IMG/VR virus record: IMGVR_UViG_3300012919_001762
Location: 1-25,381 of that record
Direction: 5' to 3' (one strand)
Length of the DNA: 25,381 nucleotides
Source: a virus
Shown: piece by piece, positions 2,733 through 23,200 of the stretch
Numbering within the stretch: the first letter of the stretch is position 1
Layout: each line of letters begins with the position of its first letter
The notes under the pieces: model-generated
Told to the model about the DNA's origin: nothing
Seen by the model: the letters and a program-made list of their open reading frames with translations, nothing else
Database searches by the model: none
Position numbers and translations under genes: made by a program

Positions 2733-5700
2733 TTGGAACTGGAATAGACAAACGTATACAAGTTCAACAAATAATAGAGCATCAACTTCCTGAGTTTATA
2801 AGGACAGAGAGTCCTTTAGCGGTTGATTTTCTAAAACAGTATTACATTTCTCAGGAACATCGTGGTGGTGTTGTAGACCTGACTGATAATTTAGATCAAT
2901 ATATTAAACTTGATAATTTAACTCCGGAAGTGATTGTAGGTGTTACAACACTTTCATCAGGAATAAGCACCTCTGATACTACAATAAGTGTTTCATCAAC
3001 TAAAGGATTTCCAAATGAATACGGATTATTTAAAATTGATGATGAAATTATTACGTACACTGGAATAACAACAAATTCATTTACCGGGTGTGTGAGGGGA
3101 TTTAGTGGTATTACTTCGTATACAGATCCTGTTAATAAAGGTGAACTCGTATTTTCAACAAGTGTTGCAGGTATTCACACAGCAACATCAAATGTTCAAA
3201 ATTTAAGTGTTTTATTTCTCAAAGAATTTTATCAAAAAGTTAAATCTTACTTAACTCCCGGATTAGAAGATACTAAGTTGAGTGAGGATGTAGATATAAG
3301 TAATTTTATAAAAGAATCTAAATCATTATACAAATCTAAAGGAACTGAAGAGTCATTCAGAATATTATTTAATGTTTTGTATGGGATTACTCCTAAAATT
3401 GTAGATTTAGAGAATTTTCTTATTAAACCATCATCCTCAGAGTATATTCGTAGAGAAGTTGTTGTTGCTGAAAGAATATCTGGTGATCCAAATAAACTTA
3501 TAGGACAAACTATAACAAAATCAACAGACTTAACAACTTCTGGATCAGTATCGGAAGTTGAAATTTTCAGTAGGTCTGGTAACTTAGGCATTACAACATA
3601 TTATAAGTTAAATTTATTTGTGGGTTATGACGAAAGATCTGCAATTCAAGGAACATTTACCATTCCCGGAAAAACAAGGGTAGTTGAAGATGCACCTATA
3701 AATTCAACTGTTTTAACTGTAGATTCGACAGTTGGTTTCGGAACCACAGGAACTGTGATTACAAATGGTGTTAATGGTATTAATACGATTACATATGGTG
3801 ATAAATCTATAAATCAATTTCTCCTTTGCACTGGAATAGGTAATTCAATTAGATCTACTGATGATTTAAGAAGTGATGAATTTATATTTGGATATGAAAA
3901 CGGAGATTTAACAAAGAGGGTTGAATTAAGAATAACTGGAGTATTATCTGATTTTGAACTTTTACCTAGCAGTGGATCAAGTGTAACCCTTGAAGGAGAA
4001 AAAATTACAGTCAAGAACTTAGGTGAAGAAATACCAAATCCAACTTTACCGAGTGATAAATCAAGAAAGACTGTATTTTTCAATTCATGGATTTACAACA
4101 CTGCAAGTCGAATTAAACTCGATATCCCTGCTTCTACAGCAGTTAATTCAACAACATCTAATTTTGACCATAAATCAAAAATTGATAAGTCACAACTAAT
4201 AACAGGTGATAAAGTTTCTGTTTTTAGAAGAGGTGAATTTATACCATTTTTAAGAAATATAACTGTCACTGTTGGTACAAATGATATTAGTTTAAGCACA
4301 CCATTACTTAATGATGGAATATCAGAATATGATATTCAAAGAGAATTGAAAAAAGCAAAAGCTGCAAGTGATATTGATTTGCAATTTGGAAATGATATAA
4401 TCACATCGGATGTTCAAAATACTTACAATGATGGAGATGAAAATTATTATGTTGCGTCATCATCCATGCCTTCTTATCTTATTGAAAAGAAGGTTGTTAA
4501 AGAGACACTTGGTAGTATAACTGGTGTCGGGACAACTGCAGTTTATTCATCATCTGGAATTCCACAAGCAGATGTTCAAGGAACAGGATCTGGTAATTTT
4601 CAATTACTTGAAAAAAATCTCACAACTGGATTATATTCAAAATTACAATTTAATTCTCCCGTAGATTTCATAACTGGTGATGCAGTTGTATATTTACCCA
4701 ATGAAACTCCTTTAGTTGGATTATCAACTGGCACAATATATTTTGTTCAAGTACTAGATTCAAACACTCTAAGTAATAACGTTATCAGATTATATCCATC
4801 AAGATCTTTTATTACTGTAACAAATATAGAGGCATCAAATCCACCATATATTGAATTTGATAATTCAAATCAATCATCATCTACAGCAGAGCACAAATTT
4901 GTGCTACTCAGGCATAGAAATGAGCAGATAGGTGTACAAAAAGTTCTAAGGAAATTTCCTGCAAATGTAAACATAAAATCAGGTGAGTCCATTAAAACTG
5001 AATCTGGTACAACAGGTATTCTTAAAAATGGTGTAGAAATTGCAAATTATAAATCTCTTGATAAAATATATTTTGGGCCACTTTCAGACTTTAAAATTTT
5101 AAATCAAGGTAAGAATTTTGATGTAATAAATCTTCCTACAATTAGTATACCTTCACCGGGAACTGGTACCACTGCAATCGTTCAACCAGTTGTTAAAGGA
5201 TCAATAAAAGAGGTATTAGTTGATCAACAACATTTTGATGTAGAAAGAGTCATGTCAGTTACCATATCAGGTGGTAATGGATCTGGATCTGTCTTAAAAC
5301 CTGTTGTTACAAAAAGACAGAGAGAAATTGAATTTGATGCTAGGTTGAAGAGTGTACAAGGTGGAGTTGATCAAATAAATGATATTATTGAATTTAAGAG
5401 ACCTCATAATTTAGAAAACGGAGAACCACTAGTTTATAGTAACAATGGTAATTTATCTCTTGGTGTTGGAACTTTTCTGGGAGCAAATACTGCTCAAAAT
5501 AAAACATTAGTAAATGGTGCAACTTATTACCCACAAGTGGTTGGTATAAGTTCAGTTTACTTATATGAAAAATTTAGTGATTACACCGCTGGTATTAATA
5601 CTGTTGGATTTACTGTTGAAAATACAGCAGGTACACATAAATTTACCTTCTTAAATTTAAAAAATCATCTTAAAGCAGTAAAAGTCATTGACCCCGGTTC

Positions 5701-8700
5701 AAATTATACAAATCGAAAGTTAATTGTCAAACCTGTTGGTATTCACACTGTTGACAATTCAATTAATTTCAAAAATCATGGATTCAATACAGGAGATTTA
5801 GTTCAATATGCACCATCAAGTGGTAATGCAAGTCACTCACCTGTAGGACTTGGAGTAACTACACGTTATCGTGTTTTAAAATTAGATAATGACAAATTTA
5901 GACTTATTGACGTTGGTATAGGTGCAACAGATCCAAATTCAAATTATTTAAGAAAAAATTTCCAAAGAATTTCTCAAGTATTTACTTCAACTAATCATGA
6001 ATTTTTCTTTGAACCAATTGTAGTAAGAGTAGACGCAATTTATTCACCAGTGTCTGCTGGTCGCACAGAATCTTTAGTCATAACGCCTAAAATACGTGGG
6101 CCTCTAGTGGACGGATATCTACATGAACCCGGAACTAACTACGGATCGGAAATTTTAAATTTTGAGAAGAAACCAAATATAAAAATTTTAAATGGTAAAG
6201 AAGCAGAATTAAGAGCAATAGTTTTTGATGGAAAAATTATTGGGTGTGATGTCATGTTTGGTGGTAAAGAGTATACATCTGCACCAGATTTAGATTTAGT
6301 AGGTATCGGCACAGGAATAGGTGGAAAACTAAGAGCAGTTGTAACTGATGGCAAAATAACTGACGTTAAGGTTATCAATCCGGGTATTGGATATACTGTG
6401 TCCCCTGATGTTAAGATAACACCCAACGGATCAGGATTCATAGTTGACTCTGCTGTAAGAGATTTAACTGTTAATAATCTTGTTCGATTTGGTGATGAGA
6501 TATTATTAAGAGAAGCAGAGTCAAATCTACAATATTCAGTGGTTGGATATTCTAATAAAATACAGGGTGCTTTTTCTGATGTGGCAACAACTCCCCAACT
6601 TCACTCACCAATTATTGGTTGGGCATATGATGGTAATCCAATATACGGCCCTTATGGATATTCAGAAGCAGATAATAACAACTCACCATCTAGAATAATA
6701 ACATCTGGATATGACTTAGATCCTACAGAGGTAATTAATAGACCACCAGTTAGCAGTTTTGCTTCTGGATTCTTTATTGAAGATTATAAATTCACAAACT
6801 CTGGTGATTTAGATGAGAGTAATGGTAGATATTGTAAGACACCTGATTTTCCAAATGGTACTTATGCATATTTTGCTGGTATCAATACGACTACCTCTCA
6901 ACCAGAATTTCCATATTTCATAGGTGATACTTATAGATCAGAACCCATAGATGATAATTTTTTATTAACGCAATCAATTTTTGATTTTAACAACTCAAAT
7001 TTAACTCGTAATTCGCTACCATATAAGTTAGATGATGAAAATGCTGATTATAATTTTGTTATAGAATCTTATGAAATAAATCAACAGACATCAATTATTG
7101 AATCAGTTACAAGTGGAAACCTTAGTGATTTCCAAATTGTTTCTGCAGGGAGTAATTTTAAAGTTGAAGACTCTCTTAACTTTGACAATTCAAATACTGA
7201 TGGTGGTGGTGCTGCTGCAAAAGTATCAAGTGTTGAAGGTAAAGAAGTTGATAACGTTACTGTCGGAATTACAACATATAATGATGTTGTGCTTGTTCGT
7301 GGAGGAAATGGATCAGTTTCTGGATTTATTTCTACAACACATACTTTGAACACAAGTGATACTGTTGTAATATCTGGATTAACAACTAGTATACCTAAAC
7401 TTTCAGGATCTCACAAAATTGGTGTTTCTTCTGAAAGAACAGTTTTATATAAAGATGTTCCGGCAAACGCTACAGCAGGTATTATAACTGATATCTATTT
7501 GGCAAGAATACCAAATTCAGTATCAGTTGGAAGTAGTATTGGAATTGGAACTGAAAAATTATTAGTTCTCAATGTATTTGAAGATAGAAGTATTTTAAGA
7601 GTAAAAAGAGGTATCGTAGGTTCCGCAAATACTGCATCTCATGTTTTAGGTGGATTAGTTGAAACCATACCACAAACAATCAATTTGGAATCATCAGATA
7701 TTGGTGAATTTGTATCTAAGAAGAATGATATAGTCTATTTCAATCCTGCAGAAGCAGTTGGTGTAGCTGTAACATCAGGTAGATCAGTTTCTATTGGAAA
7801 ATCTTATACAATTGGTGAATTAGCAGAGGTGATTTCGATTCCGGCAAAAGGAATATTTTTACCAAATCATCCTTTCAAAGATAATCAGGAAGTAATTCTT
7901 AGAAAACCATCAGGTGCTGCAACACAGTTTACAATTGGTCTTGGTGATCGATTCCAAGTAGGAGCAGATTTTAATTTACCATCTTCTGGAAATAGTCAAA
8001 CTGTTTATATAAGAAAATTATCTGAGGATGTTGTAGGACTTGCTTTAACTGTAAATACGACTCCTGTATTCTTTAAAACTGGTAGTTTTGATAATTTTGA
8101 ATATTCATTAGAATCAAATTATCCTCAAGTAAAAGGTAAAATAGAGAGAATTACTGCTAATGTTGGTATTGCAACCGTATCAGTAGGATCCACATTACAT
8201 GGACTTCAAAATAATGATAATATTGAACTTGAAGTACTATCGACACAAACAAAAGGTGTTGGTGCAGGTGCAACCTCAGTAGTTGTTAAGTATAGTGCTC
8301 AAAATGATAAACTTTTAATAAATCCAATATTATTTACAAATTCATCAGTTAATACTGATTCTATTAATATTGCAAATCATGGATTTAAAACTGGTCAAAA
8401 ATTATTCTATGATGGATCTCCAGCAACAGGTTTAACATCACAAAGATCATATTTTGTCTATAAGACTGATGATAGTAACTTCCAGTTGGCAGAAACAAGA
8501 TATGATGTTATAAATGAACCACCTAAAGTTGTAAGTATAACTGCAAATAGTGGTGGAAATCAAGAATTATCACTTGTAAATCCTCCTTTAGAAGTTGTAA
8601 GAAATGATAATTTATTATTCTATGTCTCTGATCCATCTTTGAGTGGATATAATTTAAATTTCTATTTTGATAGTCAGTTTAAGAACAGGTTCGTATCTGC

Positions 8701-14700: not shown

Positions 14701-15643
14701 CGCATTCGCTCATAAACCAGTAACTGAATTAATTGAGTCCATTGATACTTCAAGTGCAAACTTTGCAGGATTCTCTGGAATCGTGACTGGTATTTCTACA
14801 GTTATGATAGGATCAACTATGGGACTTAAGTTTGGATTATCAAGATCTGGTGCTTTCACTAATCTAAAAGAAACTATGCCCATCTACATTTCTGACACAT
14901 CAGTTGGGCACGGGGTTACAAGTTTAAATGAGAGTGGTGCAGACACAGATGTTGTTGCAATAGGTAGAACATTTGTAGATAATGTTTATATGATTAAAAA
15001 TATTACTAGACACTCAAATGCTGCAGAGATTGAAGTTAACGTTCATTCTGGTATTAATACAACTAGTATTGATCTAGCAAAAACTAATTTACCATTCACT
15101 GTGACATTTGGTAGTGTTGGATCAGGAAATACATCATACATTGGTAGTGGTAAGCATAGAGGTGAATTTAGCACACAACCAACTTTATCAGGTGTTCATA
15201 ATCCTACAATTTATGTTGAAAAGGGTGATATTTTAAGTATCGCAAATGGCACTGGTGGACATACATTTACAATCAAACGAACATTAGGTGGATCAAACTA
15301 TACCACAGGAATTACTGGTTCCGGAGCAAATGGTTCAACTCTTGTATTCAATACCTCACAAATCGGTGCAGGTAGCACTTCATTCTTCTACCAGTGTACA
15401 AATCATCCAAATACAATGTATGGACAGATTATTGTTAAAGATATAGAAAAAGGAAAATTCTCTTTTGGAGTTCTTACACCAGCATCCGGTAATTTTGTAA
15501 GAAACAATCCAATCGCAATCGGGGTTACTGGAAATACAGTAATTACCGGTGAAGGACTGGGTATTTCAACATTCCCAACCATTCAAAGAAGGGGTTTTGG
15601 GTTCCGTGATGGTGGTGGAATTAAGAGGTCTCATACACCATGA
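2729..15643 (+). CDS. Giant gp7-like baseplate wedge protein, 4304 residues, multi-modular
   Basis: The largest gene here, about four times T4 gp7 (1032 residues). It follows gp6 and precedes gp8, the gp7 position, and its N-terminal ~240 residues look like the wedge-anchoring part: IEHQLPEFIRTESPLAVDFL at 16-35 and KGTEESFRILFNVLYG around 203-219. The rest is modular and beta-rich: an E-x-I-x-Y/RG module (about 75-150) recurring near 1572-1645 and 3105-3185; several HG-x-x-TGD modules; Gly-x-x-Tyr modules near 1123-1238, 2104-2206 and 3915-3992; a YHYH-like domain at 1290-1406; an HDGTD tandem pair at 2725-2930; INGxxQxP-type segments; a domain at about 3650-3880; a cupredoxin-like domain at 4158-4238; and a tail with FPTIQRRGFGFRDGG. 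GGAG at 2712-2715 is a weak ribosome site. There is no transmembrane segment or signal peptide. The gp7 name rests on synteny and the N terminus; the modules suggest surface exposure, possibly host contact. Confidence 0.75.
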   Translation: MIGTGIDKRIQVQQIIEHQLPEFIRTESPLAVDFLKQYYISQEHRGGVVDLTDNLDQYIKLDNLTPEVIVGVTTLSSGISTSDTTISVSSTKGFPNEYGLFKIDDEIITYTGITTNSFTGCVRGFSGITSYTDPVNKGELVFSTSVAGIHTATSNVQNLSVLFLKEFYQKVKSYLTPGLEDTKLSEDVDISNFIKESKSLYKSKGTEESFRILFNVLYGITPKIVDLENFLIKPSSSEYIRREVVVAERISGDPNKLIGQTITKSTDLTTSGSVSEVEIFSRSGNLGITTYYKLNLFVGYDERSAIQGTFTIPGKTRVVEDAPINSTVLTVDSTVGFGTTGTVITNGVNGINTITYGDKSINQFLLCTGIGNSIRSTDDLRSDEFIFGYENGDLTKRVELRITGVLSDFELLPSSGSSVTLEGEKITVKNLGEEIPNPTLPSDKSRKTVFFNSWIYNTASRIKLDIPASTAVNSTTSNFDHKSKIDKSQLITGDKVSVFRRGEFIPFLRNITVTVGTNDISLSTPLLNDGISEYDIQRELKKAKAASDIDLQFGNDIITSDVQNTYNDGDENYYVASSSMPSYLIEKKVVKETLGSITGVGTTAVYSSSGIPQADVQGTGSGNFQLLEKNLTTGLYSKLQFNSPVDFITGDAVVYLPNETPLVGLSTGTIYFVQVLDSNTLSNNVIRLYPSRSFITVTNIEASNPPYIEFDNSNQSSSTAEHKFVLLRHRNEQIGVQKVLRKFPANVNIKSGESIKTESGTTGILKNGVEIANYKSLDKIYFGPLSDFKILNQGKNFDVINLPTISIPSPGTGTTAIVQPVVKGSIKEVLVDQQHFDVERVMSVTISGGNGSGSVLKPVVTKRQREIEFDARLKSVQGGVDQINDIIEFKRPHNLENGEPLVYSNNGNLSLGVGTFLGANTAQNKTLVNGATYYPQVVGISSVYLYEKFSDYTAGINTVGFTVENTAGTHKFTFLNLKNHLKAVKVIDPGSNYTNRKLIVKPVGIHTVDNSINFKNHGFNTGDLVQYAPSSGNASHSPVGLGVTTRYRVLKLDNDKFRLIDVGIGATDPNSNYLRKNFQRISQVFTSTNHEFFFEPIVVRVDAIYSPVSAGRTESLVITPKIRGPLVDGYLHEPGTNYGSEILNFEKKPNIKILNGKEAELRAIVFDGKIIGCDVMFGGKEYTSAPDLDLVGIGTGIGGKLRAVVTDGKITDVKVINPGIGYTVSPDVKITPNGSGFIVDSAVRDLTVNNLVRFGDEILLREAESNLQYSVVGYSNKIQGAFSDVATTPQLHSPIIGWAYDGNPIYGPYGYSEADNNNSPSRIITSGYDLDPTEVINRPPVSSFASGFFIEDYKFTNSGDLDESNGRYCKTPDFPNGTYAYFAGINTTTSQPEFPYFIGDTYRSEPIDDNFLLTQSIFDFNNSNLTRNSLPYKLDDENADYNFVIESYEINQQTSIIESVTSGNLSDFQIVSAGSNFKVEDSLNFDNSNTDGGGAAAKVSSVEGKEVDNVTVGITTYNDVVLVRGGNGSVSGFISTTHTLNTSDTVVISGLTTSIPKLSGSHKIGVSSERTVLYKDVPANATAGIITDIYLARIPNSVSVGSSIGIGTEKLLVLNVFEDRSILRVKRGIVGSANTASHVLGGLVETIPQTINLESSDIGEFVSKKNDIVYFNPAEAVGVAVTSGRSVSIGKSYTIGELAEVISIPAKGIFLPNHPFKDNQEVILRKPSGAATQFTIGLGDRFQVGADFNLPSSGNSQTVYIRKLSEDVVGLALTVNTTPVFFKTGSFDNFEYSLESNYPQVKGKIERITANVGIATVSVGSTLHGLQNNDNIELEVLSTQTKGVGAGATSVVVKYSAQNDKLLINPILFTNSSVNTDSINIANHGFKTGQKLFYDGSPATGLTSQRSYFVYKTDDSNFQLAETRYDVINEPPKVVSITANSGGNQELSLVNPPLEVVRNDNLLFYVSDPSLSGYNLNFYFDSQFKNRFVSAGSTIDFGVTGVGTVGVGTTSTVTLRFDKTNPEKIFYTLEKTGFISTSDPDVKHASQISYVDSEFSGNYVAFGVTTGGFNISLNDVPEQGSYTAGAASTITYDTSSLTATGGISKINLTSGGFGYKNVPGVSSVTSANGTGENILCLSQNINNINTVRITDPGFDYHSDKTLRPEARLSPTVTLINSDSITDITISDGGSNYTDAPDLVIVDPDTGKLTADQGVIQLDLSASSLGNVNILESPRGLTSKPQILRTINNTNGYRVTEVESSNSGIVTCVLKTPINGFATPQFTVGEQIFVENIGIGTTGDGLNSADNGFVFFDVVEYNNTDPAIVKFELPKTATNPGIAASTQNFATIIKFSDYPKFTVTQKTSEFRTGEKLAVKVNNVFISTGLLVIDNRPDEFIKIEGRYEVIVGDVIRGENSGTIATINSIVNNKGRFTIDYSLRQDKGWNDEIGRLSEDYMVLADNDYHQNLSYTIQSPKTFDEIVDPVNRLLHTSGLKNFADTGISSRASVGIAITNATVVSADVITEQRVDAINNFDLGRDIDTISNGSKSKFIQLVNTKLANFVRCNTNRVLKIDDISNEFSDSEANLTGNISIPIQETFARFLVQSRNISNGEIQVDDVVIFNDNTDTFTFEKNSIVSTASTIVEVEGKTVNGSRNLVISPLDPNNDDIDIKVYKNSFNEQNLRSGTQAIGFVNLVGVSTVVSVGTTAEPIATGSTTSVDAFYATIEVVNTDSGEKNHVDIYATHDGTDSYYSEYYADTSSQNNFSSNFIGTFRSRIHNNVLSLDFDNSVGVASTVRINAKVIGFNTTGGNDVFRFKDNAQPAGAERTINLRSGITTRTNTANFISLDKNNFSAVKSVVRIQSATASAVHQVLAIHDGTDTHTIHYPFISIGSTSGIGTFSSNLTASNFVVKFHPDSGTGSHTVQHYSEEVYRDIDILNTPPTLGYGRVNESLSAFQYNAVNGIRSNKKQFTLKHNTIPIYEKGFDPEDTSKLNRSTGVFTIPNHFFSENEELIYTPLSTFAGVGATALQMSGGSNLPTTVFVKKIDNSSFKLATSSGGSAVTFTSVGAGNSHRLTMAKRTEKSVLVIDGIIQSPMSFTPVTTTLVNNSGSGISTTTTDFCVNSTADINLGDHLKFADEFMLVTSVGIATTTTGPVSGIGTFNIIGVDRAALGTLAASHNNSTVGRVFSGSFNIIGSDVFFTNAPRGTNNIARNLSNLKTPRSVFQGRTYLRKTYTNNRIFDDISTEFTGIGATFRMKVGGANTTGISTGSSLVLINGIFQKPTTENNLSNNYVFVGIGTTAQDIEFTGISSFGTNNQIISEVDVNQNRLPRGGKIVSLGSTGGLGVAPLVGAAVTGILNQFGVITSVGIGSTVYNQSVSPSRPPETLTFGSGYRPVGGTVSIGITDLAYEHRFVSAGVGSIRTNASGSNIFAGTQRTATDASYISHTGLLTLTIANHGLSVGNFVGIDTGSLVFTCSRDDFQSNHAYPRALSKTTGLPDPIAGIATVITAVTTNTITAFIGFGGGAGTGASATGNIGIGGTLDINIGAGGTNYVNPRFQFPQPNYENMEIEGVSRNGISTTDTGSNLLVTLNVGASSTVGIGSTLFEITSFEIARDGYAFKRGDKIKPVGLVTARGADLEDYILEVTEIYNDKFTSWDFGEFDFIDPIVNLQDGVRTRFPLRVNGELLSFDIGQTVDSQQIDMNALLIIYVNNVLQDPGEAYSFEGGTTFEFTTAPEANDDIAVFFYKGTASEDVQEINVVETIKNGDVVRLQANDDTSILTNQNTRRLIDLEQRKRTVSGITTTDTLETEIYTGVGINDSATNKPLTWIKQKEDKVVNGIVVSKARDSIEPLIYPTARIIGDIGTGSTSKIYVDDANFFQYEANEDSAINDINFDALIVNDTNPISASFNATVSTAGTISAIAVVDGGSGYVGNSTSVHISQPPVPMKVSPVATGIGSTAVATANITNGTITSVTINSGGIGYSTSVTPKVIAFAHKPVTELIESIDTSSANFAGFSGIVTGISTVMIGSTMGLKFGLSRSGAFTNLKETMPIYISDTSVGHGVTSLNESGADTDVVAIGRTFVDNVYMIKNITRHSNAAEIEVNVHSGINTTSIDLAKTNLPFTVTFGSVGSGNTSYIGSGKHRGEFSTQPTLSGVHNPTIYVEKGDILSIANGTGGHTFTIKRTLGGSNYTTGITGSGANGSTLVFNTSQIGAGSTSFFYQCTNHPNTMYGQIIVKDIEKGKFSFGVLTPASGNFVRNNPIAIGVTGNTVITGEGLGISTFPTIQRRGFGFRDGGGIKRSHTP
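6596..6946 (+). other. YHYH-like domain inside the giant gp7-like protein
   Basis: Residues about 1290-1406 contain IIGWAYDGNPIYGPYGY, then LDESNGRYC, then FPNGTYAYFAG, then a PYFIGD-type segment. This order (a G-x-A-x-DG-x-PIYG motif, a LDE-x-NGR motif, then P-x-GTY-x-Y) is the pattern of the YHYH family, as recalled from family knowledge. The His residues that name the family are replaced here (GTYAYF), so this is a variant. The family's function is poorly known; in a virion protein it may be purely structural or take part in binding. Confidence 0.7.
10901..11518 (+). repeat. Tandem pair of HDGTD modules in the giant gp7-like protein
   Basis: Two diverged protein repeats lie at residues about 2725-2802 and 2854-2930. 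Each has a VV-x-I/N lead-in, a conserved A-x-HDGTD core (nucleotides near 10946 and 11340), a Tyr/His-rich strand, a GTF-x-S segment, and a closing beta strand. They match at protein level, not as DNA repeats, which points to an old duplication or two insertions of the same module. Confidence 0.6.
15200..15442 (+). other. Cupredoxin-like domain near the C terminus of the giant gp7-like protein
   Basis: Residues about 4158-4238 read like a small blue-copper fold: NPTIYVEKGDILSI, then GGHTFTIK, then a final FFYQCTNHPNTMYGQIIVKD. The possible type-1 copper ligands are His4178, Cys4223, His4226 and Met4230; C-x2-H-x3-M lies between the C-x2-H-x2-M loop of amicyanin and the C-x2-H-x4-M loop of plastocyanin. 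Whether metal is bound is inference; similar YQC-x-x-H segments occur in other phage structural proteins, as I recall. Confidence 0.65.
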
Positions 15644-15653
15644 CGATTTCCTG

Positions 15654-15661
15654 TATAAATA
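15654..15661 (+). promoter_or_regulatory. T4-type late promoter TATAAATA upstream of gp8
   Basis: An exact TATAAATA lies in the 37-base gap between the giant gene's TGA (15641-15643) and the gp8 ATG (15681), 19 bases before the start. Motif and spacing match the copy before gp25. It helps place the gp8 start at 15681, because the open frame reaches back to 15549 through the promoter and into the giant gene. Confidence 0.82.
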
Positions 15662-15680
15662 TAGAAAAAAACATATAATA

Positions 15681-17237
15681 ATGCCAGCAATTGTTACAGA
15701 CCAGTTCAGAATATTAAATGCAAGTAATTTTGTTGCAGGGGTTTCTTCGTCTACCAATTCATATTACATTTCTTTAGGTTTACCCAATCCTCAACCAGCT
15801 TCTGTTGGTTTTGGAAGGGCAAATAATTGGAATACTGCTACTCCTAATCCAGTAGATAGTTTTTCAGATATTGGACATATCGGTGATACAACTCAATTTG
15901 GTAAAAGAGTCACAGAAGCAAATGTAAGAAGATTAGTTCGTCGTATTGATTGGACTAAAGGAATCAAATACGATATGTATCGTCAAGATTATAGCACTAC
16001 AAATAGTGCTCCAAACACAGGAGCAACACGCTTGTATGCTGCAAACTACTATGTTATGAACAGTAATTTCAATGTTTATATTTGTATTGAGAATGGATCA
16101 TCGGGTATAAACACTACAGGAAATGCATCTGAGGATGAACCAACGTTTACTGACTTAGAACCATCAAAAGCTGGAGAAAGTCAAGATGGATATGTTTGGA
16201 AATACCTGTTTACTGTAAATCCAAGTGATATTATTAAATTTGACTCAACTGATTTTATTGCACTACCAAATAATTGGAGCACAAGTACTGATGCACAAAT
16301 TCAAGCAGTTCGTGAGAATGGTGATTCAGACATAAACAATAATCAAATCAAAACTGTCTATATTGCTGATCAAGGAAATAATTATACTACGACTGGTGGA
16401 GAATTTGATATTTTAGGTGATGGAACTGGTGGAAAAGTTGTTGTTGAAGTTTCTGGTAATAAAATAACTAAATGCACAGTTTCAAATGGTGGTAAAGGAT
16501 ATACGTACGGAGTTGTTGACTTAGGAACAATTAACAGTGGTGCAGTTGCCGGAAGCACTCCTGCTAAATTAATTCCAATCATTCCACCTTCAAAAGGACA
16601 TGGATTTGATTTATATAAAGAACTTGGAGCAGATCGTGTGCTTGTTTATGCAAGATTTGATGATTCCACGAAAGATTTTCCAATTGATGCTCAGTTTGCG
16701 CAAGTTTCATTGGTTAAAAATCCAACATCTTTTGGAACAACTTCAATTTATACAGGAAGCACTTTTTCCGCATTGAAATCGATTAAATTCTCGACAATAT
16801 CAGGAACACCAGCAGTTGGTGGTATATTACAACAAACTGTAGGAACAGGACAAACTGCTTTTGGTTATATAAGTTCTTATGATAGTGATGTAAATGTAAT
16901 TAAATACATTCAAGATAGATCATTGTATTTTGGTAATAAAAATGACCAAACTGACTATGCAAACGTGACAAATGGGTCACAACAATTTGATTTTGTATCA
17001 ACTACAAGTCAAATTGCATTTCCCGGAGGAAGTGGATCAGTTGAAACAACATTTAGTTCTGGTATTACAACAGACGTAAACAATAATAATGTTGCTTTAG
17101 GTGTTTCATTCACAAGTGGTCTCGCTTCACCTGAGATAAATAAAGGGTCAGGTGATTTATTGTACGTTGACAACAGAGCAAAAATCTCAAGAAATTTGAG
17201 ACAAAAGGAAGACATTAAAATTATTCTGGAATTTTAA
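15681..17237 (+). CDS. gp8: Baseplate wedge protein gp8-like
   Basis: A 518-residue homologue of T4 gp8 (334 residues), the wedge protein that as a dimer links gp7, gp6 and gp10. The match covers both ends: an N-terminal AIVTDQFRILNA block, RRIDWTKGIKYDMYR in the region of T4's RRDW motif, QDGYVWKYLFTVNPSD near residue 168 (T4: GDGYVWEYLF), and a C-terminal LLYVDNRAKI followed by KEDIKIILEF, matching T4's IYMENR and EEINILFTF ends. The added length lies in the middle: a Gly-x-x-Tyr module at about 217-293 of the type seen in the giant protein. The start is MPAIVTD at 15681, not the upstream ATG at 15549, which would overlap the giant gene and translate the late promoter. No Shine-Dalgarno is visible. 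The next gene starts three bases after the stop. Confidence 0.92.
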   Translation: MPAIVTDQFRILNASNFVAGVSSSTNSYYISLGLPNPQPASVGFGRANNWNTATPNPVDSFSDIGHIGDTTQFGKRVTEANVRRLVRRIDWTKGIKYDMYRQDYSTTNSAPNTGATRLYAANYYVMNSNFNVYICIENGSSGINTTGNASEDEPTFTDLEPSKAGESQDGYVWKYLFTVNPSDIIKFDSTDFIALPNNWSTSTDAQIQAVRENGDSDINNNQIKTVYIADQGNNYTTTGGEFDILGDGTGGKVVVEVSGNKITKCTVSNGGKGYTYGVVDLGTINSGAVAGSTPAKLIPIIPPSKGHGFDLYKELGADRVLVYARFDDSTKDFPIDAQFAQVSLVKNPTSFGTTSIYTGSTFSALKSIKFSTISGTPAVGGILQQTVGTGQTAFGYISSYDSDVNVIKYIQDRSLYFGNKNDQTDYANVTNGSQQFDFVSTTSQIAFPGGSGSVETTFSSGITTDVNNNNVALGVSFTSGLASPEINKGSGDLLYVDNRAKISRNLRQKEDIKIILEF

Positions 17238-20200: not shown

Positions 20201-23200
20201 TTCAGCAAATAATTTTAAAGATATTCCACTCCTTAGAAATGGACTAAGAGCAAGTGATACACTAGATTTCAGACCAAGAGTTGCTGATAATATATCTGGG
20301 GTTACTGGTTCAGTTTTTGCTTTTGCAAATAGAACATTTAACACATCAGGAACTAACCCAACATTAATTCCTGCACCAAACGAATCCTCAACTCTAGATT
20401 TTAAATTCTACTTACCTAGAATTGACAAATTAATTTTAGATGCAAGTGAATATACCGATAAAGCGTACACGAGCGGTCAATTCCAAGTTATTAAAGGAGT
20501 TTCATCGCAAAATCCTGTTGTTCCAGCTGATGTAGAAACTGCGATGACGATTGGAACAATTGAAGTTCCTGCATATCTTTATGATGTAAAAGATGCTGTT
20601 GTAACTGTTGTTGATAATCGTCGTTATACGATGAGAGATATTGGTGGTTTAGAAGATAGAATTGAATCTTTAGAAAAACTAACATCATTATCATTGCTTG
20701 AATTGGATACAAAAGCACTTCAAATACAAGATGCTGATGGTTTGTCTAGATTTAAAACAGGATTCTTTGTTGATGATTTCAAAGATACAAATTTATTAGA
20801 TCGTAGAAATCCTGATTGTAAGTGTGATGTTATTGCAAGTTCTCAAAACTTAGTTACTCCAACTGATTTTTATACTATAAAACCAGAATTAGCACTTAAT
20901 AATTCTTTAAATCCAAGCACTGCTGATTTTTCTGATAATTTAGCATTATTAGATCCCGGTGTGAGAAAAACTGGTGATTTAATCACTCTTGATTATGATG
21001 AAGTTGTGATGCGTGAACAACCACTCGCATCCAGAGTTGAAAATGTAAACCCATTTAACATAGTTACATTTAGAGGAAGAATGATATTAAGTCCAAGTGC
21101 CGATACATGGACAAGGAATATTATTCTTGATGATGGAACAAGAACAGTTTTAGGAGATACCGCAGAAACATTTACAAATGATCGTATTGTTAGTAGTGAA
21201 CCTGACACACATATTAGGTCTCGAAATGTTGCTTTCGATGCAAGTGGACTTAAACCTACTACAAGATTTTATGCTTTCTTTGATAGTGCATCAGGAATAG
21301 ATATTATTCCTAAATTGATTGAAATATCGATGGATTCAGGATCATTTGATGTAGGTGAAACAGTCGAAGGTTTCGATGGAGCAGACCGTATATTTGCTGT
21401 AAGAACAAACGCACCAAACCATAAAACAGGAAGTGCAAGTTCACCAACCACAGTTTATACAACTAACCCTTATAATACTGCTCTAACTCTACCAAGTCTT
21501 TATTCTGCATCATCAACTGTTTTAAATATTGATGTCGCTTCTTTAGTTGAAGAGGCTCAAGGTAGATTTTTTGGATATATTGAGCAGGGAATAAAATTAG
21601 TCGGTGAGATGAGTGGAGCAACTGCAACAGTCAGACCAATAAGACTTATTTCTGATGCTGTTGGTGCTTTAAAGGGATCATTCTTTTTCCGTGATCCATT
21701 TGGAACCCCTGTTCCACAATTAAGATTTCAAAATGGTACAAAAACATTTAAACTCACATCCAGCGAAGATAATGGAAGACCACTTCTTGGTGATCCATCT
21801 ATAAGTGAGGTAGAGCAGACATATCGCACAAGTGGTGTGGTAGATACATTTAGACAATCAACAGTTGTTGTACGTATTCCACCTCCACCCCCACAACCAG
21901 TTGTTTTTAATATTACAAATGAGTTTATTACAAATGAAATTACTAATGTCACTAATGTAACTGAAGTAACTAATGTAACAAACGTAACTAACAATATTAC
22001 TGAAGTAACTGAGGTTACTGAGGTTATCAGAGAGGTAGTTAGAATTGAAGATGATGATCCTCTTGCACAATCATTCACTGTAGAGGGAAGTGGTGCATTC
22101 TTGACATCAGTTGATTTATACTTTAGATCAAAGGATGTAAAAGAACAATTAACAGTTCAAATCAGAACAGTTGAATTAGGTACACCCACTCTTGTTCTTA
22201 TTCAGGATTATGCACAGGTTGTTTTAGATCCATCTCAAATTAATGTGTCTGAGGATGCCTCTGTAGCAACAAGAGTTACATTCCAATCACCAATTTACCT
22301 TGAGGGTGGACAAGAGTATGCTGTGGTTCTTCTGGCTCCTTCTAGTAACAACTATGAAGCATGGGTTGGTAGAATGGGTGAACCAACGATTGAAACTCAA
22401 AGTTTACCTGATGCAGAAAGTATCGTTATTTCAAAACAGTATATCGGTGGTAGTTTATTCAAGTCACAAAACGGTTCAATCTGGACTGCAAGTCAATTTG
22501 AAGATCTTAAATTTACTTTATATAAAGCGGACTTCTCTAAATCGAGAGATGCGGAGGTTATCTTCTATAATCCAGAATTAAATTATGAGAGTAGTTTGAT
22601 TCCAACTCTGAAAAATAATGCAATCAGAACTTTACCAAGAAAGATGAAGGTGAAGATTGATACAGGTGCTACAGCATCTGAGATTGCAGTTGGTAAGAGA
22701 ATAGGTGCTGGTGTTGCCGGTGTTGCTAATACTACACCAAATGGAATTGTTGAAAGACTTGGTGGTGTTGTATCTGCCGAATCACTTGAAGCAGGTGGAT
22801 CTGGATATGAGGCAAGTCTTTCTGGTCAAACTGTTAGCACATTCAATGTAACTGGTAATGGAACAGGTCTTACTCTTGATGTAAGTTCTGGATCAGATGG
22901 AGTTATAACCGGTGCTGCGATAAATGCTAATGGAACTGGTTATTCTGTAGGAGATCTTGTGGGAATCGTCACATCGACTCTTGGTGCTGGACAACAATCT
23001 GGATCTGGAGCATTATTCTCAATTGATTCAATTTCCGCAACTGATACTTTATATCTTACAAATGTTCAGGGTCAGACATTCTCAAACAATGCAGCACTTC
23101 TTCATCATAATGGAACACAGTTTGTTGCTTTAACAGGAAATATACAAGTTAATGGAACTGTAAATACACCAATTGACTCACTTCATGATGGAAATGTAAT

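Follow-up and report, generated by a model that had tools for sequence, protein, structure and literature searches.

The window, by which we mean the whole 25,381-base stretch of viral DNA that was analysed, carries in order speD, gp25, gp6, the gene of a 4,304-residue protein, gp8 and the gene of a 2,432-residue DUF4815 protein. The giant protein is a member of phrog_2885, a baseplate-wedge family (E=0), and over its first 1,000 residues it is 44–47% identical to gp7 of P-SSM2, S-SRM01 and S-SKS1, the closest cyanophages, in which gp7 is labelled 'baseplate wedge initiator'. The core order gp25–gp6–gp7–gp8 is common to the window, P-SSM2 and S-SRM01. Homology over the length of the protein, together with this gene order, identifies it as a gp7-type baseplate wedge protein of cyanomyoviruses, and the family match and the gp7 identity support the location in a baseplate protein that an earlier note on this DNA had given for the domain described below. 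The source is an uncultured myovirus related to the marine cyanophages. Its host is probably a picocyanobacterium, because gp7 and gp6 are both nearest to cyanophage proteins (gp6 to those of Synechococcus phages, at about 60%). Wedge proteins of the gp7 and gp8 types have been detected by mass spectrometry in purified virions of cyanophage S-CREM2, a result that concerns the wedge proteins and not the cupredoxin domain (PMC10665884). The mechanically called gp8 frame begins at a GTG inside gp7 (15549–15681); its family match starts from residue 45, and the true start is likely the ATG at 15681. The DUF4815 protein contains, at 21909–22040, a striking low-complexity stretch of 44 residues, NITNEFITNEITNVTNVTEVTNVTNVTNNITEVTEVTEVIREVV.

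Table 1 Features of the gp7 gene and its inserted domain (positions in the window).
Feature	Position	Strand	Basis
gp7-type baseplate wedge protein that hosts the cupredoxin domain, 4,304 aa	2729..15643	+	phrog_2885, gp7 identity, gene order
Strand of gp7 immediately preceding the insertion, aa 4098-4105	15020..15043	+	low-confidence second model; alignment to insert-free proteins
Inserted cupredoxin domain, gp7 aa 4120-4237	about 15086..15439	+	alignment limits (S-SRM01 gp7, L250-L253), fold, profile matches
His4178, first candidate copper ligand (CAT)	15260..15262	+	PDB alignment, conservation
Cys4223, candidate copper ligand at strand end (TGT)	15395..15397	+	PDB alignment, conservation, fold model
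His4226, candidate copper ligand (CAT)	15404..15406	+	PDB alignment, conservation
Met4230, candidate axial copper ligand (ATG)	15416..15418	+	PDB alignment, conservation
Strand of gp7 immediately following the insertion, aa 4243-4251	15455..15481	+	low-confidence second model; alignment to insert-free proteins

Near the C-terminus of gp7 lies a cupredoxin domain, the single copy in the window, which by alignment is a clean insertion. When the protein is aligned with S-SRM01 gp7, window residues 4005–4119 correspond to 3715–3825 and residues 4238–4300 to 3829–3893, so that an insert of about 118 residues stands in place of three S-SRM01 residues. The domain is absent, with a clean junction, from the sister gp7 proteins of S-SRM01, P-SSM2 and four uncultured contigs (L250–L253), and it is present in the window lineage and in the relatives that were read (L224–L248). 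The earlier note had set the domain at 15200–15442; its place within gp7 stands, and its start has to be moved about 38 residues upstream, to about 15086, to take in the first strands. A free auxiliary plastocyanin gene was rejected as a candidate, as the domain sits within the gp7 frame. Folding of the 305-residue C-terminus of gp7 gave a mean pLDDT of 58.6 and a good model for the inserted domain only, and the model therefore says little about the orientation of the domain on gp7.

That the insert has a cupredoxin fold, which had first been read from motifs, is borne out by two lines of evidence. Family profiles built on 23 diverse phage homologues matched amicyanin (2e-6) and plastocyanin (7.7e-6 and 1.6e-5) in the PDB, and the same search also matched rusticyanin and copper nitrite reductases. 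AlphaFold2, run on a 68-row alignment, gave a confident beta-sandwich of ten strands (pLDDT 90.9, pTM 0.87), whose best matches in a PDB fold search were cupredoxins or the cupredoxin domains of multicopper enzymes, at TM-scores of about 0.4–0.64 (2dv6, TMq 0.59; 5fc9, TMt 0.64; 2w88, TMt 0.56). The predicted fold is thus the one proposed and not another, and both topology and a significant sequence relationship place the domain in the cupredoxin superfamily, as a distant member given the moderate TM-scores. Pfam PF00127 (Copper-bind) matched 25 of 68 family members at E≤0.01. Among predicted viral proteins, the best fold matches were cyanophage tail-fibre connectors, tail fibres and peptidase-domain proteins. 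Searches with a single sequence came back empty for the window copy: Pfam models did not match it, and phmmer with its 82-residue sequence found nothing useful in the PDB (best E 0.9, a viral VP5). This would fit a chance or convergent motif on some other fold, but such a reading is scarcely credible, since the pattern H-x(25-70)-[FY]-x-C-x2-H-x(2-4)-M arose in 0 of 5,000 shuffles of the protein and the profile matches, the AlphaFold2 model and the fold matches all contradict it; we have rejected it.

The candidate ligands His4178, Cys4223, His4226 and Met4230 are numbered exactly as in the earlier note, and the FFYQC strand and C-x2-H-x3-M loop it had pointed out are present. In the printed alignments with amicyanin and plastocyanin, the His, Cys, His and Met of the domain fall on the known ligands, which, with their conservation in relatives, supports a complete candidate set. 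Both the order of the ligands and their placement on the strands match a type-1 copper site: His4178 lies a little ahead of a strand, Cys4223 closes one, and Met4230 comes just before the last. In length the ligand loop lies between those of plastocyanin (C-x2-H-x4-M) and amicyanin (C-x2-H-x2-M); the His–Met spacing is of the amicyanin type in 56 of 68 aligned homologues and of the x3 type in the other 12. By fold and sequence the window domain is a cupredoxin and not a plastocyanin, given its C-x2-H-x3-M loop and its position inside a structural protein. It shares fold, order and the spacing His...Y-x-C-x2-His-x(2-4)-Met with the blue copper proteins (amicyanin, plastocyanin and pseudoazurin; PF00127); unlike them, it is embedded in a phage baseplate protein, has three residues between His and Met, and has a copper site that is predicted.

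Type-1 copper sites carry electrons and this one is complete, which could speak for a redox-active domain that exchanges electrons with photosynthetic or respiratory partners of the host or acts as a sensor of the envelope's redox state. We regard such a role as very doubtful: no redox partner is encoded nearby, gp7 of the sister phages works without the domain, and the domain forms part of a structural protein instead of a free carrier. Redox activity, cell-surface sensing and contact with copper-rich host proteins, all of which had been suggested for it, are without direct support here.

A YHYH domain is also found in gp7 (6575–6892, aa 1283–1388; Pfam 2.3e-25). A zinc-hydrolase site has been proposed for such domains (PMC7824862). 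The eponymous motif reads Y-A-Y-F in the window protein (GTYAYFAG), likewise VYAYFA in P-SSM2 and S-SRM01, and by this reading the zinc site is probably incomplete, in contrast to the intact copper site of the same gp7.

The four candidate ligands hardly vary in the family. Across 23 clusters at below 60% identity, a set that is partly circular because one contributing scan used a pattern containing the Cys and His, conservation reaches 100% at the four ligands, at Tyr4221 and at a small number of further Gly and Tyr positions, against a column median of 52% identity. In searches that for the most part did not depend on the ligands, all four are present in 81 of 83 distinct copies, the remaining two being incomplete there; homologues that keep the fold thus keep the ligands, which was one of the tests proposed in the earlier note. 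They are present in 36 of 38 copies from a scan of gp9 with patterns outside the site (the two others are gapped or cut at the Met), in 18 of 18 from tblastn of phage records, and in 27 of 27 in the gp7 set; for that set every pattern of the second scan lay entirely outside the domain, and one of the six in the first held the Cys and His. In the gp7 relatives the loop varies in length by one residue with the ligands retained, and the codons of three ligands vary synonymously. The domain as a whole evolves at about twice the dN/dS of its gp7 surroundings with the copper site fixed: the median is 0.31 in the domain versus 0.14 around it, and the domain value is higher in 67 of 73 gp7 pairs, which are not independent of one another. 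This rise may reflect relaxed constraint and not an interaction with the host.

Invariant ligands strongly imply that the site would bind metal, and it can likely bind copper. The four ligand residues hardly ever change in relatives, for which reason these virions probably carry the metal. The sandwich might instead be used without metal in the virion, in the manner of an immunoglobulin-type domain that lends rigidity or adhesion, with Cys, His and Met retained because they help packing or as an ancestral legacy. Beta-sandwich domains are common phage decorations, free copper is very low in the cyanobacterial cytoplasm, and the site has been partly or wholly lost in one copy each of two multi-domain proteins with several cupredoxin copies (L149, ORF aa 581–681; L199, ORF aa 1334–1449). 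These site-less copies are still recognisable, and the fold may accordingly not need copper. Such loss is rare, however, a full set of ligands is seldom needed for packing alone, and the four ligands and a few Gly and Tyr residues stay invariant across the 23 clusters while the loop changes in length. We therefore consider a metal-free role rather unlikely.

The same module recurs in other adsorption proteins. It forms the last part of gp9 in all 33 sampled loci, lies at most 10 residues from the C-terminus in 52 of 66 other loci, and occurs in the tail fibres of many cyanophages; tblastn at E≤1e-3 found it in 177 phage records, nearly all of Synechococcus or Prochlorococcus phages. The C-terminal domain of gp9 of P-SSM4, Syn19 and S-RIM2, a baseplate wedge tail fibre connector whose records carry no cupredoxin annotation, belongs to the same family and has the same four ligands, with 42–44% identity over the ligand-bearing part. 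The cyanophage gp9 copy ends a protein of about 410 residues and has a C-x2-H-x2-M loop, whereas the window copy is inserted in gp7. None of the annotated isolate matches inspected lies in gp7, and the gp7 form therefore seems limited to uncultured phages. Cellular members come chiefly from marine Flavobacteriaceae (L206–L215); they are of the same sequence family and 40–50% identical to the phage query used, and often stand at the C-terminus of a long protein that is probably on the surface. The published tail structure of cyanophage A-1(L) is built of different proteins (PMC10966104). That the module keeps returning at the ends of adsorption proteins suggests that it is an accessory part facing outwards.

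Metal in the adsorption apparatus has a parallel in the HxH iron sites of tail fibres (T4 gp37 and alterophage R22Y), for which a 'Trojan horse' use of the iron has been proposed (PMC11705849). There, paired histidines hold iron in the fibre; here the candidate is a mononuclear Cys/His/Met site in a globular domain. By analogy, and in view of its recurrence in gp9, tail fibres and gp7, the module could offer copper as cargo or lure to the host's copper uptake or copper-binding surface proteins. No receptor for such an offer is known. Type-1 sites usually hold their copper tightly and buried, which also speaks against it, and we find this use quite improbable.

The reading that we prefer, to which as a whole we give a probability of roughly 0.55, is a domain that binds copper and sits exposed on the virion surface, where it would serve for decoration or adhesion and not as an electron carrier. 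The gp7 of a cyanophage-related myovirus would have acquired a cupredoxin domain near its C-terminus, and this domain would retain a complete type-1 site of His, Cys, His and Met. Each copy would bind one copper ion once the particle encounters the metal in seawater or in the cell envelope; uptake as early as assembly is uncertain, given how little free copper the cytoplasm holds. In this view the domain is part of the adsorption apparatus and is locked by its metal: copper would keep the ligand loop and the sandwich rigid and leave the exposed exterior free to vary and adapt. The analysis shows the fold relationship, the clean insertion, the invariant ligands, a protein evolution faster than that of the gp7 surroundings and the return of the module in gp9 and tail fibres; that the site is loaded with copper, that the domain lies exposed on the virion and that it stabilises or adheres are inferences. 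A bolder proposal, that marine cyanophage-type virions hold real type-1 copper centres in a mobile gp7, gp9 and tail-fibre module and use the copper in attachment or baseplate triggering, seems to us improbable.

The cupredoxin fold and the type-1 site are themselves already known. To our knowledge, copper is a metal not known from phage virions. In the literature searched, which included few subscription papers, we found no account of cupredoxins or blue copper domains, whether in cyanophages or in tail proteins, nor of a mobile module that keeps its site conserved in the baseplate and fibre proteins of phages; the nearest published idea is tail-fibre HxH iron (PMC11705849). Should the site prove to be loaded, copper would be part of the attachment machinery of many marine phages. 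Organically bound copper of this kind might amount to a marine pool, and the encounter between cyanophages and their hosts would become open to concrete study. Syn19, S-RIM2 and P-SSM4, cultured relatives that have the same domain in gp9, make the question directly testable.

The family also touches on annotation. Small phage proteins of the cupredoxin family call for caution, since they can be misread as products of petE, a photosynthesis gene. A 168-residue protein annotated PetE in Synechococcus phage S-SCSM2R (L029:776-1282) belongs to the virion-domain family. Its N-terminus resembles that of a tail fibre and no signal peptide is evident; from these features the protein is probably not a metabolic plastocyanin. 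Two records filed as Euryarchaeota metagenome-assembled genomes (L204 and L205) contain copies close to those of viral contigs, in long frames that resemble structural proteins, and are probably misbinned viral DNA.
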